Shown in pieces: positions 42,407 through 62,399 of a stretch of DNA of 64,000 bases; position 1 is the first letter of the stretch; each line of letters opens with the position of its first letter. The notes below the pieces were generated by a model. The model made no database searches and was not told where the DNA came from. It worked only from the letters and a program-made list of their open reading frames with translations. Source of the stretch: Sphingomonas sp. (lineage in GTDB: Bacteria > Pseudomonadota > Alphaproteobacteria > Sphingomonadales > Sphingomonadaceae); assembly GCF_030145815.1 (NCBI RefSeq), contig NZ_JAIXHL010000002.1:1-64000 (forward strand), read 5' to 3'. The position numbers and the translations under genes were made by a program.

Positions 42407-42464
42407 CGCGACCGCTCTCCGAAAAAAATCGTCCAAGTTTTTTGCGGCTAGGCAAATGTTGCCG

Positions 42465-45034: not shown

Positions 45035-45127
45035 GTGGGCACCGCCTTACTGTAATACTACAATACTGACAGAAGCACTCAGCTAAGATCATCTTGCAAT
45101 AAGCGGGGTTCTTTGGCGGAGACTGCA

Positions 45128-45778
45128 GTGACGATCCCCGACACGGACGAGGGGCCTTTGTCGAGCGAAGATGCGCTGCGTCGAGCAGCGCTTTTTGCAT
45201 CCGGCTTGCTCGCCCTGCGCGAATCGCCCCGCTTCAACGACCTGGTTCAGGATCTGAGCCGCACGATGGACGTGCCGATCGCGGGCGTCAGCGTGGTCGA
45301 TAGCGGATTTTGCTGGCTGCCGGTGCTGCACGGAGTCGATCTCGACTCGATCCCCCTGTCCGAATCGCTGTGCGCCGGGGTGGTCGAAACCCAGATCCCG
45401 ATGACCGAGACCGATCTTCCGGCAAATCCGAAATTCGCCGATAACCGCTTCGTCGCGGGACCGCTCGCGCTGCGTGCCTATGCCGCCGTGCCGATGTGCG
45501 GCGTGCAGGGGGCGAAACTGGGTAGCGTGTTCATCGCGGACCAGCGTGTTCGACCCGATTTCGCCAGTCGCGCCATTCCGCAGCTGGAGCGCACGACCGT
45601 GCGCATTTTGGAAGAGGCCTCCTCGCCGCATCATATGCGCCGCGTCGGTCGCACCACGGTTGAGGGGCTGGAATCGCTGATCCGACGGGCCACCCGCAAC
45701 GGTGATGACGCGCTGGTCACCGCAATCGATCGCGTGATGCGCGACGTGCTGCCGCTGACCGGGATGCGCGGAAATTAG
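45128..45778 (+). CDS. GAF domain protein
   Basis: This 216-residue cytoplasmic protein is nearly all one GAF domain (about 20-170: LSRTMDVPIAGVSVVDSGFCWLPVLHGVDLDSIPLSESLCAGVVE, then PLALRAYAAVPMCGVQGAKLGSVFIADQRVR). It has no output domain, so it would act through a partner. The GTG at 45128 has GGAG six bases upstream; a TTG at 45113 would add five residues. It lies 93 bp after motE, probably transcribed separately. Its GAF resembles that of the GAF-EAL protein at 19846. Confidence 0.82.
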   Translation: MTIPDTDEGPLSSEDALRRAALFASGLLALRESPRFNDLVQDLSRTMDVPIAGVSVVDSGFCWLPVLHGVDLDSIPLSESLCAGVVETQIPMTETDLPANPKFADNRFVAGPLALRAYAAVPMCGVQGAKLGSVFIADQRVRPDFASRAIPQLERTTVRILEEASSPHHMRRVGRTTVEGLESLIRRATRNGDDALVTAIDRVMRDVLPLTGMRGN

Positions 45779-46190: not shown

Positions 46191-46230
46191 GCGGTCTCCA
46201 ATCAAAGGCGTGCAGCGGGACCGCACGCGA

Positions 46231-46247
46231 CCCCGTCTCTCTATAAT
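46231..46247 (+). promoter_or_regulatory. Flagellar promoter-like element ahead of the 46291 gene
   Basis: CCCCG-TCTCTC-TATAAT, followed by AGG, lies 43 bp ahead of the 46291 start. It has the same layout as the element ahead of fliL. Confidence 0.5.
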
Positions 46248-46290: not shown

Positions 46291-46512
46291 ATGAGCCACG
46301 ATCAAAAGCCCGCACGCGTTCGCGTCATCGGTGGCAATGCCGCCGACCGCCGCCTGCGCGGCGGCTTTGCCACCGGCCCCGCCCCGCGCCGCGCCGCTAA
46401 GCCCCGCCCGGTCGTCAAGCCGGGCTTGGGCCGCGCGCTGATCGCATTCCTGTTTCTGTCCGCAGCGTTGGTCGGCGGCGTGGTTCAGGCCTGGTTGCTG
46501 CTGCGCGCATGA
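46291..46512 (+). CDS. Small single-pass membrane protein
   Basis: This 73-residue protein has a basic N-terminal half (residues 1-48, Arg/Pro-rich) and one membrane helix (about 50-70). Its stop overlaps the next start (ATGA), and it has a promoter-like TATAAT upstream. No family recognised. It is probably an inner-membrane partner of the exported 592-residue protein that follows. Confidence 0.65.
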   Translation: MSHDQKPARVRVIGGNAADRRLRGGFATGPAPRRAAKPRPVVKPGLGRALIAFLFLSAALVGGVVQAWLLLRA

Positions 46513-54858: not shown

Positions 54859-54875
54859 ATGATAGGAGAGCGGCG
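54859..54875 (-). promoter_or_regulatory. Flagellar promoter-like element ahead of flgE
   Basis: On the minus strand: CGCCG-CTCTCC-TATCAT, 40 bp ahead of the flgE TTG. It has the same spacing as the fliL, 46291 and flbT elements. Confidence 0.45.
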
Positions 54876-54947
54876 ACCCGATCGGTCCGCAGGGGCGCGC
54901 AATTTTTGCTGGGCGGCAATTTTTTCCGGGTGCGGGACCGCGCCCTC

Positions 54948-54964
54948 CCCCGCCCTTCTATGAT
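54948..54964 (+). promoter_or_regulatory. Flagellar promoter-like element ahead of flbT
   Basis: CCCCG-CCCTTC-TATGAT lies 29 bp ahead of the flbT ATG. It diverges from the flgE element. Between them are two related AT-rich stretches (AATTTTTGCTGGG and AATTTTTTCCGGG) that could bind a shared activator. Confidence 0.45.
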
Positions 54965-54993: not shown

Positions 54994-55389
54994 ATGCTGC
55001 GAATTTCCCTGCGCGATGGCGAGGCGCTGGTGGTCAACGGGGCGATGCTGCGCGCAAAGGGCCGCACCGAACTGGTGATCGAGAACAAGGTCGCGCTGCT
55101 GCGCGGTCGTGAGATCATGGCGCCGGAAGAGGCGACGACCACCGCGCGGCGCCTCTATTATGCGACGATGATGGCGTATCTCGGCGACGATCCCGAAGCG
55201 CACAAGAACCAGGTCATCGATGAGCTGACGCTGCTGATCCCGGCGATGGCGACCGACGAGGGCCGCGCCGCATGCGTGCGCTTTGCCCGGCAGGTTGCCG
55301 AGGGCAGCTTTTACCGCGGTCTCATCACCTGCCGTGCCCTGATCGAGCTTGAAGACGCGGCCACAGCCCCGGCGAACGAAGCGGCCTGA
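54994..55389 (+). CDS. flbT: Flagellar biosynthesis repressor FlbT
   Basis: This 131-residue protein matches FlbT, which in Caulobacter and Brucella controls flagellin mRNA stability and translation. Its body MLRISLRDGEALVVNGAMLRAKGRTELVIENKVALLRGREIMAPEEATTTARRLYYATMMAYL fits the family. The usual partner flaF is not adjacent. The ATG at 54994 has GAGGA seven bases upstream. It heads the fliI operon. Confidence 0.9.
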   Translation: MLRISLRDGEALVVNGAMLRAKGRTELVIENKVALLRGREIMAPEEATTTARRLYYATMMAYLGDDPEAHKNQVIDELTLLIPAMATDEGRAACVRFARQVAEGSFYRGLITCRALIELEDAATAPANEAA

Positions 55390-55399
55390 GAGCAGACCG

Positions 55400-56737
55400 G
55401 TGCACAACCTGTCCTCCACCGCCCGAACGATTGCCACGCTGCCGCTGGAAACGCGCTATGGCCGCGTGACTGCGGTGCGCGGCGCGCTGATCGAGGTCGA
55501 GGGCCTGGCCGGCGCGGCACAGATCGGCGCGCGGATCGACATCGACACGCCCGACGGGATGATCCCGTCGGAGGTGACGGGCATCGAAGCCGGGCTGGCG
55601 CAGTGTATGCCATTCCGCGAGCCACAGGGCCTGAAGTCGGGCACGATCGCCTGGCTGCACCCCGGTGCGCTGTCGCTGCGCCCGTGCGACGCCTGGCTCG
55701 GCCGCATGGTCGACGGCCTGGGCCGTCCGGTCGATGGCAAGGGCGAATTGCCGCTGGGCGCCACTCGCCAGCCGATCAAGGCACCCCCGCCCCCGGCCGC
55801 GTCGCGCGCGCGGGTTGGCGACCGGATCGAAACCGGCGTGCGCGCGCTCGACCTGTTCGTGCCGTTGTGCACCGGCCAGCGGCTCGGCCTGTTCGCCGGG
55901 TCGGGCGTCGGCAAGTCGGTGCTGTTGTCGATGCTGGCGCGTTGGACCGAGTGCGATGTCGCGATCATCGGGCTGATCGGCGAACGCGGCCGCGAGGTGC
56001 AGGAGTTCGTCGAGGATGATCTGGGGCCGGAGGGCTTGGCGCGCAGCATCGTCGTCGTGGCGACGTCGGACGAACCCGCGCTGATGCGGCGTCAGGCGGC
56101 CTGGACCACGCTCGCGCTGGCGGAGCATTTCCGCGACCGGGGCCTGCGCGTGCTGTGCCTGATGGACTCGGTCACACGTTTTGCGATGGCGCAGCGCGAA
56201 ATCGGTCTTGCCAATGGCGAGCCGCCCGCGACGCGCGGCTATACCCCGACCGTCTTTGCCGAGCTGCCGCGCCTGCTCGAACGTGCCGGTCCCGGCCTGC
56301 CCGGACAGGGGTCGATCACCGGACTGTTCACCGTACTGGTCGATGGTGACGACCATAACGAGCCGGTCGCCGACGCAGTGCGCGGCATCCTGGACGGTCA
56401 CGTCGTCATCACCCGACGCATTGCCGAGCGCGGACGCTATCCCGCGATCGACCTGCTCAAATCGGTGTCGCGTACCCTGCCCCGCTGCTTGAACGAGGAT
56501 CAGAACGCGACCCGTCTCGCCGCGCGGCGCGTGCTCGGCACCTATGCCGATATGGAAGAGATCGTCCGGCTTGGCGCCTACAAGGCGGGATCGAACGCCG
56601 AAGTCGATCGCGCCGTCGCCATCGCCCCGCAGATCGAGGCGATGCTGACCCAGACCAAGGGCGATCGCGGTCATGCCGACCAGGCGTTCGCGGATTTGGC
56701 TGCACTGGTGGAGGAAACGCATGCGCACGCCCTATGA
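55400..56737 (+). CDS. fliI: Flagellum-specific ATPase FliI
   Basis: This 445-residue export ATPase has an N-terminal domain with PLETRYGRVTAVRG, Walker A GLFAGSGVGKSVLLSM (about 155-170), LIGERGREVQEFVEDDLG, Walker B LRVLCLMDSVTRFAMAQREI and the ARG-type TRGYTPTVFAELPRLLERAG. The start is GTG at 55400, 10 bp after flbT. It overlaps fliJ by 17 bp. Confidence 0.96.
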   Translation: MHNLSSTARTIATLPLETRYGRVTAVRGALIEVEGLAGAAQIGARIDIDTPDGMIPSEVTGIEAGLAQCMPFREPQGLKSGTIAWLHPGALSLRPCDAWLGRMVDGLGRPVDGKGELPLGATRQPIKAPPPPAASRARVGDRIETGVRALDLFVPLCTGQRLGLFAGSGVGKSVLLSMLARWTECDVAIIGLIGERGREVQEFVEDDLGPEGLARSIVVVATSDEPALMRRQAAWTTLALAEHFRDRGLRVLCLMDSVTRFAMAQREIGLANGEPPATRGYTPTVFAELPRLLERAGPGLPGQGSITGLFTVLVDGDDHNEPVADAVRGILDGHVVITRRIAERGRYPAIDLLKSVSRTLPRCLNEDQNATRLAARRVLGTYADMEEIVRLGAYKAGSNAEVDRAVAIAPQIEAMLTQTKGDRGHADQAFADLAALVEETHAHAL

Positions 56738-58114: not shown

Positions 58115-58200
58115 CAGCTACGTAAGAACGCAGTACCGACCAACCCTCCAGTATTTCTCCTATATGAGTAAGGAACGAAGTTGGGATGGAAGTTCCTGCC

Positions 58201-59547
58201 ATGAGCGTCAGCGCTGAACTTATCGAACGCCTTGCCTTTGCCGGTTTCACGGACAGCCAGCGCGCGACATTGACCAAGTTCGGCCCCACGCTCGAGCGCG
58301 AGCTGCCCGGGATTCTCGACAAATTCTACACCAACCTGCGCGGCTGGCCGCAGCTGGCAGCGATGTTCAAGGGTAGCGACGCTATGCCGCGTGCCGCGAA
58401 CGCCCAAGCCGAGCATTGGAAGATGCTGTTCAGCGGCCGGTTCGATGACGCCTATGTCGCGTCGGTCAAGAAAATCGGCCTGATGCACAGCAAGATCGGG
58501 CTCGACCCGCAATGGTATATCGGCGGCTACACCTTCATCCTGCGCCATTTGTTCGAGCTGGCTGCACAGAGCAGCGGACGCAGCCTCAGCCCCGCCGCCG
58601 CGCGCCGGACGGCGGAGCTGTGCACCGCGATCAACATGGCGGTGATGATCGATATGGACCTCGCCATCTCGGGCTACATTGTCGAGAACAAGATCACCTA
58701 TGACGAGAAGCTCGCCCGGCTGGCGGAAGACTTCCAGGCCCAGGTCGCCGGTCTCGTCGAACAGCTGAGCGTTGCGTCGAACGAGCTGGAAGCCAGCGCC
58801 CAATCGATGACCAGCAATACCGGTCAAGCCAATCAGCGCGCGCTCGCGGTCGCTGCAGCGGCGGAACAGGCGAGTGCCGGGGTGCAAACCGTCGCATCGG
58901 CTGCGGAGGAACTGTCGGCGTCGATCCAGATGATCGCTGGACGGGTGACCGAATCCGCCCGCACCACCGAGCGCGCGGTGACCGACGCCCAGCAAACCGA
59001 CCAGACGGTCCGTGCGCTCGATGAGGCTGCGGAACGGATCGGTACGGTCGTTGGTCTGATCGGCCAGATTGCGGGCAAGACCAACATGCTGGCGCTCAAC
59101 GCCTCGATCGAGGCGGCCCGCGCGGGCGAAGCGGGCAAGGCCTTCGAGGTCGTCGCCGCCGAGGTGAAGGCGCTCGCCAGCCAGACCGAGCGGATGACCG
59201 AAGAGGTCGAGGCCCAAGTGCGCGAGATTCAGCAAGCGACCCGGCAAGCGGTCACGGGCCTGAGCAACATTACCGAAACGATCGGGAAGGTCGCCGAGAT
59301 CAGCACGAGCATCGCGAGCGCCGTTAACCAACAGAACAGCGCCACCGCCGACATCAGCCGCAACATCCAGCAAACCGCACAGGCGGCGCATGAAGTGTCG
59401 GCCAACATCGTCGGGGTCAGCCAGGCGTCGGAAGCTACCGGAAGCGCAGCGAGCCAGATATTCTCCTCAGCCAGCGCGCTGTCGGGACAGGCCAGCACCC
59501 TCTCCGATCAGGTCCATCGGTTCGTCGATCAGGTGCGCGCGGCCTGA
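58201..59547 (+). CDS. Globin-coupled chemotaxis sensor (HemAT-like)
   Basis: This 448-residue soluble protein has an N-terminal protoglobin domain (about 1-165) with the probable proximal His96 in [20 protein letters not shown], then a methyl-accepting signalling domain (about 200-448) with [46 protein letters not shown]. It should sense oxygen or another gas via heme and signal to CheA. The ATG at 58201 has GGAAG upstream; an ATG five codons earlier is also possible. Confidence 0.93.
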
Positions 59548-59681: not shown

Positions 59682-60716
59682 ATGTCGAACACCACTGCCG
59701 CGCTTGAAGTTGCCGTTGCCGCCGTTATCGAGAACATGGCGAAGGACGGCCAGCCGCAGACCAACCGCCAGCGCGTGTATGGCGAGCGCGCCTTCGCCCA
59801 GGTGCTGAAGCTGCTGGCGCCGCGTATCCGCCACTTCATCCGCCAGTATGGCCTTGCCGCCCATTGGGACGACGCCGAACAGTGCTGTGCGATCGGTGTC
59901 CACCGCGCGATCCAGGCCTATGACTCCGAGCGTGCGCAGTTCACGACCTTCGTCAACTGGCAGCTGCGCGGCGAACTGCAGAGCCTGCGCTTCCGGGTCA
60001 TGACCGACCAGCGCCCGTCGGCGAAGAAGGTCGAGGCGACCACCGTCTCGCTCCATGCGATGAGCCTGGGCGCGGAAGGCGAGGCCAATACGCTGGAGAG
60101 CATGATCGAGGACGAATTTGCCCTGGAGCGCACCGAAGCGGCGGCCGGCGAGCATCTCGCGGTCAAGACCCGCGAAGCACTGCTCGACGCCTATGTCGAT
60201 CATCTGCGCGGCGTGGCGATGGAACAGCTCAAGCGCCGTGCCCGCAACACGCGGTCGGTGCAGGTGCAGGACCCCCGCCTCCCCCGCTACCGCGCCGGTG
60301 CCGCGATCATCGATCCCGCCGAGATCGCTGAGCTGGAGGAGAAGCTGGAGGCACAGCGCCGCACCGTCGCACGCCGCCTGTCCGATGATGCCGCCGATAT
60401 CGAGCTGGAAGCCGATCCGCAGGAGCGCGAACGCCAGCGTCAGGTCGCCAAGCGCGCCGCCAAGACGATCGCCGACATCGCCGCCAACGACCCGCGTTTC
60501 GGCGGGATGTTTGAACGGCCCAAGGCGGCCCCGCGTCGTCGGGCGACCGATCTTCCCGCCGCTGCGCCGGTCGGCGTACTGCCGGATCACAACGCACCGC
60601 ATAATCGCCTGAGCCGCGTGATCGCGGTCGATCCGGTCGCAATCGAGGAGACCCCGGCGGTCGAGCAGGACGCGCGCGAACCCGCGCTGGTCCGCGGCAC
60701 CACCCGTTCGCACTGA
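59682..60716 (+). CDS. Atypical sigma-70 family protein with region 2 only
   Basis: This 344-residue protein has sigma region 2 (about 38-106): LLAPRIRHFIRQYGLAAHWDDAEQCCAIGVHRAIQAYDSERAQFTTFVNWQLRGELQSLRFRV, which matches the core-binding and -10-recognition helices. No region-4-like helix-turn-helix is seen after it; instead a charged helical segment (about 150-285) and a disordered, Pro/Ala-rich tail follow. It could bind RNA polymerase and recognise -10 elements without -35 contact, or act as an anti-/pseudo-sigma. It is followed by a 159-residue unknown gene. Confidence 0.75.
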   Translation: MSNTTAALEVAVAAVIENMAKDGQPQTNRQRVYGERAFAQVLKLLAPRIRHFIRQYGLAAHWDDAEQCCAIGVHRAIQAYDSERAQFTTFVNWQLRGELQSLRFRVMTDQRPSAKKVEATTVSLHAMSLGAEGEANTLESMIEDEFALERTEAAAGEHLAVKTREALLDAYVDHLRGVAMEQLKRRARNTRSVQVQDPRLPRYRAGAAIIDPAEIAELEEKLEAQRRTVARRLSDDAADIELEADPQERERQRQVAKRAAKTIADIAANDPRFGGMFERPKAAPRRRATDLPAAAPVGVLPDHNAPHNRLSRVIAVDPVAIEETPAVEQDAREPALVRGTTRSH

Positions 60717-61301: not shown

Positions 61302-62399
61302 ATGGACGCGCCCGTCATATTGCGGCCTGGCGTTGCTTCAGGGTCGGTCCCGATCGACCCCTATCGCGCGTTCATCTTTCCCAACGCGATCCGCGAACTG
61401 CGTCGGCGGGCCGGGTATCAGAAGCTGATCGGCCTTGCCCACCGCCTTCCGGGGCTGACCTATATCCGGCTGTCCAAGATCGAGCGCGGCGAGGTTACGG
61501 CCCGCGCGCATGAACTGACCGAAGTCGCTGCGGTGCTTGGCGTCGCGCCGGAAGCCTTGCTGGTCGATGTCGATGCACCGGGTTTCTCGATCGAGCAATG
61601 GGCAATGCCCTTCGTCAGCGCGCCGATGCTGGACCTGGAGCGCGAAGAGTTCGCCGTCCTGCTGGCCGCCGCAGTGCGCCACCTGCGCTCCACCGACCGC
61701 GCGCTGACGATTCAGGCGATCGGTGAACGGCACGGCATCGCTCCGGTCAACCTGTCGCGCATCGAAAATGCACAGCGCAGCTTTGAAGAATGGAACGCGC
61801 CGACCCGGTTGGCGATCGCCGCGCTGTTCGGTGCCCCAACCGAAGCGGCGTTGCGCGCGCGGATCGACCAGCTGCACCGCGCGGGCGATCTTGGCCCATG
61901 GATGGCATCGGTCAGCGATCCCGAAGCGCGGATGCGGCGGACACGCGAACGGATTGCGGCGTTGCGCGCGGAGCTGCGCGGCGAGGCGACCGTTGTTCCG
62001 GCCGCGCCAACCGCGATTGCCATGGTCGGCGATCCCACTGCGACCATTCCCGTCCGCGGGGTCGCTGGAGCCGATGGGCTGGTCATCGACCAAGAAACCG
62101 GTGAGCGCATCCCGCCCCCGCCCGGATGCGGTGCACAGGTCATCGCGTTGCGGCTGTGTCGCGCCACGCTCGGCGCCGGGCTGCCCGGTCAGGCAATCCT
62201 GTTCATCGACCCGGATCGTTATCCTGTTGCGGGCGGGCTTGCCGCAGTGCGCGAACCGGGCGGCTTTCGCATTCTGGCCGTCGCAGTGGGCATGGACGGC
62301 GCGCTGGTGGGACACAGCCAATCGCCGCAGAAGTCTCTGCCGCTCAATGACATGACGCAGGATGAGGTGCATGCGGTCGTCGCCGCGCGTTTCGTCTAA
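61302..62399 (+). CDS. Transcriptional regulator with two Xre-type helix-turn-helix segments
   Basis: This 365-residue protein has a first helix-turn-helix (about 29-88: RELRRRAGYQKLIGLAHRLPGLTYIRLSKIERGEVTARAHELTEVAAVLG) and a second (about 123-180: TIQAIGERHGIAPVNLSRIENAQRSFEEWNAPTRLAIAALFG). A C-terminal region (about 225-365) carries no known domain. The ATG at 61302 has a TAGGAG box; in-frame starts at 61263 and 61281 are possible. The palindrome at 61269-61292 suggests autoregulation. Confidence 0.8.
   Translation: MDAPVILRPGVASGSVPIDPYRAFIFPNAIRELRRRAGYQKLIGLAHRLPGLTYIRLSKIERGEVTARAHELTEVAAVLGVAPEALLVDVDAPGFSIEQWAMPFVSAPMLDLEREEFAVLLAAAVRHLRSTDRALTIQAIGERHGIAPVNLSRIENAQRSFEEWNAPTRLAIAALFGAPTEAALRARIDQLHRAGDLGPWMASVSDPEARMRRTRERIAALRAELRGEATVVPAAPTAIAMVGDPTATIPVRGVAGADGLVIDQETGERIPPPPGCGAQVIALRLCRATLGAGLPGQAILFIDPDRYPVAGGLAAVREPGGFRILAVAVGMDGALVGHSQSPQKSLPLNDMTQDEVHAVVAARFV

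Follow-up and report, generated by a model that had tools for sequence, protein, structure and literature searches.

Flagellar promoters of the sigma28 (FliA) type read TAAAGTTT-n11-GCCGATAA, with 19 bases from TAAA to GCCGATAA (PMC2859248), and in E. coli sigma70 the residues R584, E585 and R588 are reported to set specificity at positions -31 and -33 (PMC2613000). Among sphingomonads, a ‘FliA family transcriptional regulator’ is named in a table of a Sphingomonas screen (PMC11340318), and the flagellar set of Sphingopyxis includes fliA and flgM (PMC6472365). A 2026 preprint describes two independently acquired flagellar gene sets in Sphingomonas that are differently expressed (PMC13015449); the part of its text open to word search mentions neither sigma nor FliA.

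The genome analysed here resembles these dual systems in that it carries two flagellar gene sets. One is represented in the window, by which we mean the whole 64,000-nucleotide stretch of DNA that was analysed, and the other, on contig C8, includes another fliI together with a standard FliA (198.5 bits against the FliA_WhiG model, TIGR02479). Here we describe a sigma-70-family protein of the first set, hereafter SIG, which we believe to be a FliA-like, autoregulated flagellar sigma factor with a re-specified region 4, the GACCG promoter code of its flagellar genes most likely being read by SIG itself; this is the explanation that we consider probable. Among the papers listed in searches of the openly licensed PMC literature, titles and abstract openings yielded neither SIG nor GACCG promoters, and the link of SIG to this promoter code and its remodelled region 4 did not appear there. 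Of four public plasmid records with a SIG relative, one leaves it unannotated and three call it a sigma factor or a sigma factor-like protein, and the kind of protein is therefore not unknown.

SIG has a divergent region 2 and a flagellar setting

The open reading frame that an earlier note on this DNA placed at 59682-60716 lies on the plus strand and encodes 344 aa, and the sigma region 2 which that note saw in it is present, though divergent. Pfam Sigma70_r2 matches residues 45-100 (59814-59981, plus strand), the putative core-binding and -10-reading helices, with E 0.0015 and 18.7 bits against a cut-off (gathering score) of 24, and the top NCBIfam match is a sigma-70 model (residues 37-102, E 5e-5). 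In an alignment of 12 family members including the window protein, Sigma70_r2 was found in all 12 at E<=1 (best E 1.4e-5), with one of the eight members whose scores were shown lying above the gathering score (L012, 25.3 bits vs 24). SIG shares with the SigB/SigF/SigG group weak profile matches in region 2, and with S. aureus SigB a structural match: residues 5-107 of its AlphaFold model align to 8x6g_H with Z 11.4 and an rmsd of 1.9 over 89 residues, a score to be read with the aligner’s warning that the arrangement of helices by itself can take helical models to Z 13. VIA-align covers residues 1-280 only at an rmsd of 16-21 and is therefore informative on region 2, not on region 4. Foldseek with the SIG model returned nothing at E<=0.001, sigma chains topping its list with a best E of 0.032. 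With RpoS the family shares weak profile matches in regions 2 (a partial alignment) and 4. SIG differs from RpoS and from the SigB/SigF/SigG group in its flagellar setting and in falling far below the curated NCBIfam cut-offs.

We rejected a classification of SIG as FliA, although we infer that it works like FliA. A FliA_WhiG search of the own genome at E<=1 gave six places, none of them at 59682, and the curated cut-off of 189.6 bits, which the FliA on contig C8 passes, was not reached by SIG; a profile comparison of the SIG family with that FliA as a single sequence gave a probability of 0.4%. ECF-named models were absent from the NCBIfam and Pfam matches of SIG, and in its AlphaFold model regions 2 and 4 are separated by about 100 residues that include a long helix (147-195).

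The flagellar setting that had been described for this gene holds, with FlgK, FlgE, FliL, FliM, FlbT and a FliI-type ATPase recognised by Pfam together with the cluster members FlhA and FliF; the names fliN, flgI, fliK, fliG and motA are those that we presume from reading the translations rather than from profiles. Upstream of SIG lie flbT (54994-55389, plus strand; Pfam FlbT, E 2e-30) and the fliI ORF (55349-56737, plus strand, its true start uncertain; Pfam ATP-synt_ab and T3SS_ATPase_C). SIG occurs in 12 of the 61 genomes searched (own included), all of one genus code, and window-type fliI (71-100% identity) occurs in exactly these 12 and in none of the other 49. At E<=0.001 the family profile matches 30 of the 61 genomes, the 18 without SIG matching only its region-4 part at 19-23 bits, presumably through other sigma factors. 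A family scan limited to one genome for each species found 117 relatives; the best 80 were kept (81 sequences with the window), all from sphingomonads except one from an uncultured bacterium. Among these best 80 of 117, fliI and an slt-like gene lie upstream of SIG in 73 loci; the seven others are L064 (at a contig end), L087, L092, L098, L099, L100 and L107. The copies in L092, L098, L099, L100 and L107 lie away from fliI, and for four of these five the genome has another copy. No SIG or slt relative was found in eight 8-9 kb stretches from other families of the order, seven of which start in fliI (about 55-63% identity), while the remaining one begins just behind that gene.

Region 4 is diverged yet conserved within the lineage

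The earlier note held that the protein has no region 4. For the single sequence this raw observation was correct, because no Pfam region-4 profile matches SIG alone at E<=1. It does not extend to the family, where a recognisable Sigma70_r4, the very finding that the note had named as refuting its view, is present in the same columns in 6 of the 12 members (best E 2.7e-7), and these columns are conserved in the window lineage. The family thus joins a region 2 to a region-4-homologous stretch, as expected of sigma-70 proteins, and since SIG alone passes no region-4 profile, its own membership in this respect follows from homology and not from its own score. A region-2 protein without detectable region 4 at first sight recalls RsoA/SigO of Bacillus subtilis, which is a split sigma. 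SIG differs in having its region 4 in the same chain, as its relatives show; an RsoA-like arrangement with region 4 supplied by a partner was rejected, the region-4-homologous stretch sitting in SIG’s own chain.

The diverged region 4 comprises residues 212-273 (60315-60500, plus strand). In relatives these columns read, for example, TLDDLSLETGVTKERVRQITKRAAK, and several of the 12 members show RRVFQTATLDDLSLETGVTKERVRQITKRAAKVIAEIA C-terminal to a long helix where the window protein reads ARRLSDDAADIELEADPQERERQRQVAKRAAKTIADIA. The alignment indicates that the hydrophobic first helix and the turn of the region-4 helix-turn-helix (HTH) are gone from the window protein, which has also lost region-4 columns that its relatives conserve; what the window lineage retains is the ERxRQxxKRA helix (residues 250-259). 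Across the 12 members E250, R251, R253, Q254, K257, R258 and A259 do not vary, and neither do R253, Q254 and A259 across 58 family members. A profile built from the 12 matches RpoS chains, its best stretch (positions 219-269) aligning to region 4, with E 4e-4 for the whole sequence and 0.058 for that stretch alone. AlphaFold predictions, which drew on 58 and 41 of the 81 family sequences, have helices at 212-233, 237-240 (short) and 246-269 in the window protein (mean pLDDT 79.4, pTM 0.44) and at 211-232, 238-245 and 249-269 in an intact ortholog (mean pLDDT 74.9, pTM 0.39). From the intact to the diverged model the first HTH helix thus shrinks from eight residues to four, with the recognition helix kept, the packing of the domains in the SIG model being unsure because of its pTM. 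The putative -35 recognition helix, from alignments and model, would span residues 246-269 (60417-60488, plus strand) and include R249, E250, R253 and Q254.

A simple motif rule, which calls L109 eroded and L108 intact against their look, assigns the intact form of region 4 to 57 and the diverged form to 23 of 80 rows (drawn from the best 80 of 117 relatives, with the window included and L117, whose frame is broken at 93 aa, dropped from tree and counts). On a quick tree the distribution of the two forms needs six changes, at least four of them by starred branches.

Comparison of the window protein with its close relatives L049 and L050 gave dN/dS values of 0.022 and 0.009 for region 4 (212-273), 0.083 and 0.008 for residues 1-110, 0.046 and 0.105 for residues 111-211, and 0.204 and 0.285 for the tail (274-344); against the more distant L051 the values are 0.288 for region 4 and 0.694 for the tail. 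Within the lineage, purifying selection acts strongly on regions 2 and 4, and the gene is not decaying. The C-terminal tail, which had been noted as disordered, is indeed variable and poorly modelled, with a mean pLDDT below 60 in residues 281-300 and 321-344 and of about 70 in residues 301-320. As judged from sequence comparison, the best reading of region 4 of SIG is that it has been re-specified rather than lost.

A GACCG element at fixed spacing in flagellar promoters

The flagellar promoters of the window lineage have in common GACCG-N15-TYCTATVA. Searched as GACCG-N16-YCTATVA, the pattern has seven matches in the own genome (4.66 Mb), six of which fall in the 58-kb flagellar cluster (binomial P 2.5e-11, with the bounds of the cluster set by our own gene calls), and the reversed control pattern has two. 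With a spacer one base longer none of five matches lies in the cluster, and with one base less, one of 14. The broader GACCG-N16-YCTAYVA has seven matches in the same genome against eight for its reversed control, so the signal lies in place, not in the total; a scan of the window allowing two mismatches showed no excess over chance (6 vs 3.55 expected, a number reached by 16 of 100 shuffles). The canonical FliA promoter, TMA-N16-GCCGATA, has 21 genome matches vs 14 for the reversed pattern and forms no group on the flagellar set of contig C8.

The six exact sites stand just upstream of flgE, flbT, a 73-aa ORF at 46291, fliN, flgI and a fliK-like gene. Specifically, GACCG-N15-TCCTATCA precedes flgE (54860-54887, minus strand), and GACCG-N15-TTCTATGA (54936-54963, plus strand) precedes a row formed by flbT, fliI, fliJ, the slt-like gene, a globin-MCP gene and SIG, an order suggestive of an operon and of autoregulation. 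The promoter of the 73-aa ORF is GACCG-N15-CTCTATAA (46219-46246, plus strand), and an imperfect one, GACCA-N15-TCCTATAT (58138-58165, plus strand), lies upstream of the protoglobin-MCP gene, where the relative G015 has the exact form, GACCG with TCCTATAA. Exceptions in this slot in the own genome are motA (GTCCG), fliF (AAACC), fliL (CAAAT) and the gene at 84781 (GTCGG). The link between a sigma-70-type protein and flagellar genes with a shared promoter element, drawn in the earlier note, stands up, and its remark that these elements have no clear -35 does so in part: it fits fliL, where the slot falls inside a palindrome (GGCAAATGTTGCC, 42451-42463, a possible regulator site), and does not fit 46291, where GACCG stands at the fixed spacing of 15 bases before the -10, which makes GACCG the -35 that had seemed to be lacking at this promoter.

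A comparison of seven flagellar promoters of the window lineage shows GACCG (once GACCA), N15 and a CTAT-type -10, and not the TAAA and GCCGATAA of FliA promoters. SIG and FliA are alike in their link to flagellar genes, in an 8-base -10 and in a nearly equal spacing (20 bases from GACCG to the -10, against the 19 reported for sigma28); they differ in the letters of both elements and in that SIG is encoded in the flbT-fliI gene row.

Promoters of relatives with intact and diverged region 4

The flgE-flbT interval was usable in 66 of 81 sequences, and in this set both divergent promoters have TCCTATAA-like -10 elements; the listing of intervals is without L117 and near-duplicates (15 names, 14 in the set), and the residue-249 and promoter counts, which include near-duplicates, cover 65 rows for flbT and 64 for flgE, the best -10 of L119 having scored under 9. 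Exact GACCG stands 15 bases before the flgE -10 in 15 of 23 diverged rows and in one row labelled intact (L108), and TTTGG or TTGGG occupies the flgE -35 slot in 18 of 41 intact rows. Because promoters were partly found through GACCG, column statistics on them are biased. Where sites were picked by the -10 alone (score >=9), exact GACCG was found in the window clade at 7/15 sites in the own genome (G000), 8/13 in G015 and 7/15 in G026; in other diverged genomes at 2/11 in G029, 3/8 in G034 and 0/11 in G022, even though G022 has a diverged region 4 and R249; and in intact genomes at 0/33 (G002 0/5, G023 0/3, G011 0/12, G031 0/3, G017 0/10). G004, on a short contig, is absent from this count, and some of the picked sites fall inside upstream genes.

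The -10 elements at these sites behave differently from one group to another. Perfect TCCTATAA occurs at 0/15, 2/13 and 1/15 sites in G000, G015 and G026, at 5/8 in G034, 4/11 in G029 and 1/11 in G022, and, among intact genomes, at 7/12 in G011, 6/10 in G017, 1/5 in G002, 1/3 in G023 and 1/3 in G031. A relaxed -10 with a strict -35 thus marks the window clade and does not hold for diverged forms in general. Of the GACCG-N16-YCTAYVA matches in each genome, those that lie on the contig of SIG and no more than about 60 kb from it are 6/7 in G000, 7/8 in G015, 6/9 in G026, 4/6 in G034 (three of them at flbT, flgE and motA) and 3/6 in G029 (two of them at flgE and motA), and within 100 kb of SIG none was found in G022 or in six genomes with intact region 4. 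In the best-sampled genomes with a textbook region 4, G011 and G017, the same genes have a mostly perfect -10 and no clear common -35, and the window clade therefore seems to have shifted promoter information from the -10 to the -35. The several GNCCG-like slots of the intact G017 make a weak ancestral -35 of the GNCCG kind possible. We also considered TTKGG as the general -35 of species with intact region 4 and rejected it in the six genomes searched: it occurs at flgE in G002, G023, G004 and G017, the last of which has one further match on that contig, and elsewhere in the genome it turned up in none but G011 and G031, on other contigs.

Residue 249 and promoter specificity

Aligned by hand, R249, E250 and R253 of SIG appear to be the counterparts of R584, E585 and R588 of E. 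coli sigma70. At position 249, 56 of 80 rows (from the best 80 of 117 relatives) have K and the other 24 have R. GACCG with at most one mismatch is found at flgE in 18/23 R249 rows vs 2/41 K249 rows, and at flbT in 16/24 vs 2/41; because the rows are related, with only two to four independent pairs, a sign test on these differences cannot reach significance. In Novosphingobium, exact GACCG is present at flgE in L108, L112 and L113 (R249) and not in L111, L114, L120, L124 and L126 (K249); the R249 misfits are L102 (GTCCG), L122 (AACCG) and L121, which shows no fit. R249 together with GACCG looks, from these alignments, like a second origin in this genus. Tentatively, and with more doubt than confidence, we suggest a natural specificity switch in which the flagellar promoters gained GACCG where the first HTH helix of region 4 had eroded and residue 249 had changed from K to R, at least twice (on the window/Stakelama side and in Novosphingobium), most strictly in the window clade, whose -10 became relaxed as well, with textbook-region-4 relatives lacking a clear -35.

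Proposed mechanism and alternatives

In sphingomonads, we propose, SIG acts as an alternative flagellar sigma factor that would serve one of the two flagellar sets of its genome, the other having the ordinary FliA. Region 2 would read an 8-base FliA-like -10, YYCTATVA here and TCCTATAA in many relatives, and the diverged region 4, through its retained recognition helix, would read GACCG 15 bases upstream. The holoenzyme, assuming that SIG binds core polymerase, would transcribe flgE, the putative operon flbT-fliI-fliJ-slt-globinMCP-SIG, fliN, flgI, the fliK-like gene, the 46291 gene and probably motA; since SIG sits downstream of its own flbT-fliI promoter, it may amplify itself. In the window clade, promoter information would have moved to the -35 while region 4 was rebuilt.

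The main rival holds that SIG reads the -10 alone and that GACCG is bound by an activator, such as the HTH protein at 61308 or the FlbD-like sigma-54 activator encoded in the cluster. A sigma-54-type activator does lie in the cluster, a recurrent palindrome (GGCAA-N3-TTGCC) suggests another regulator at these promoters, and the region-4 HTH is shortened in the model. However, GACCG is short, non-palindromic and held at one exact distance, a shift by one base in either direction losing the flagellar enrichment, whereas the palindrome varies in its distance; region 4 is under purifying selection, and residue 249 covaries with GACCG. We consider an activator at GACCG improbable, though it deserves to be kept in mind. 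Less probable still is the view of the earlier note, in which SIG would have no region 4 and would guide polymerase to promoters with nothing but a -10, a view which draws on the missing profile match of the window protein and on the mostly perfect -10 elements without clear common -35 in G011 and G017, but which conflicts with a homologous and conserved region 4 and with the strict GACCG at fixed spacing in the window lineage. That SIG is a decoy, as the earlier note alternatively suggested, an anti-activator or a gene decaying towards its loss is the least credible reading, and we rejected decoy and decay because, despite the fast tail (dN/dS 0.20-0.29) and the loss of region-4 columns conserved in relatives, purifying selection on regions 2 and 4 is strong within the lineage and the gene and its flagellar set occur together in 12/12 genomes.

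If SIG, with its re-specified region 4, does read GACCG, the family would be one in which sigma region 4 and the -35 element change together, with dozens of natural variants, and its flagellar regulon would be predictable from sequence. A sigma with a region 4 beyond the reach of profiles could then depend more, not less, on its -35, which would caution against declaring region 4 absent on a missing HMM match. SIG would also be a candidate regulator for one of the two differently expressed Sphingomonas flagella described in PMC13015449.

Other features of the flagellar cluster

A FlbD-like protein with a sigma-54 activation domain and a Fis-type HTH is encoded within the cluster (L149:15579-16865, contig C2 91579-92865), so sigma-54 may act there too. 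The palindrome GGCAA-N3-TTNCC recurs in the window at 42451-42463 (fliL) and 54915-54927 (flgE/flbT), and relatives have it too, its distance from the -10 being variable; the window has it at three places with four strand matches vs 0.35 expected, the third place, 8911, not being flagellar. It is possibly the site of an FlbD-like activator. Downstream of SIG, 61308-62399 encodes a protein with two XRE-type HTH stretches, a candidate co-regulator, which has a match within 10 kb in 45 of 80 loci (best 80 of 117), those of L112 and L122 lying far off on the other strand. The ORFs at 45113-45778 (221 aa) and 46291-46509 (73 aa) have no Pfam match at E<=0.001; the latter, with its exact GACCG promoter, has relatives in other species that begin much like it (MSxDQ). 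Between slt and SIG, 58186-59547 encodes the protoglobin-MCP chemoreceptor, adjacent in only 5 of 80 loci (best 80 of 117), an apparent oxygen sensor which certain lineages have taken into the row of flagellar genes.
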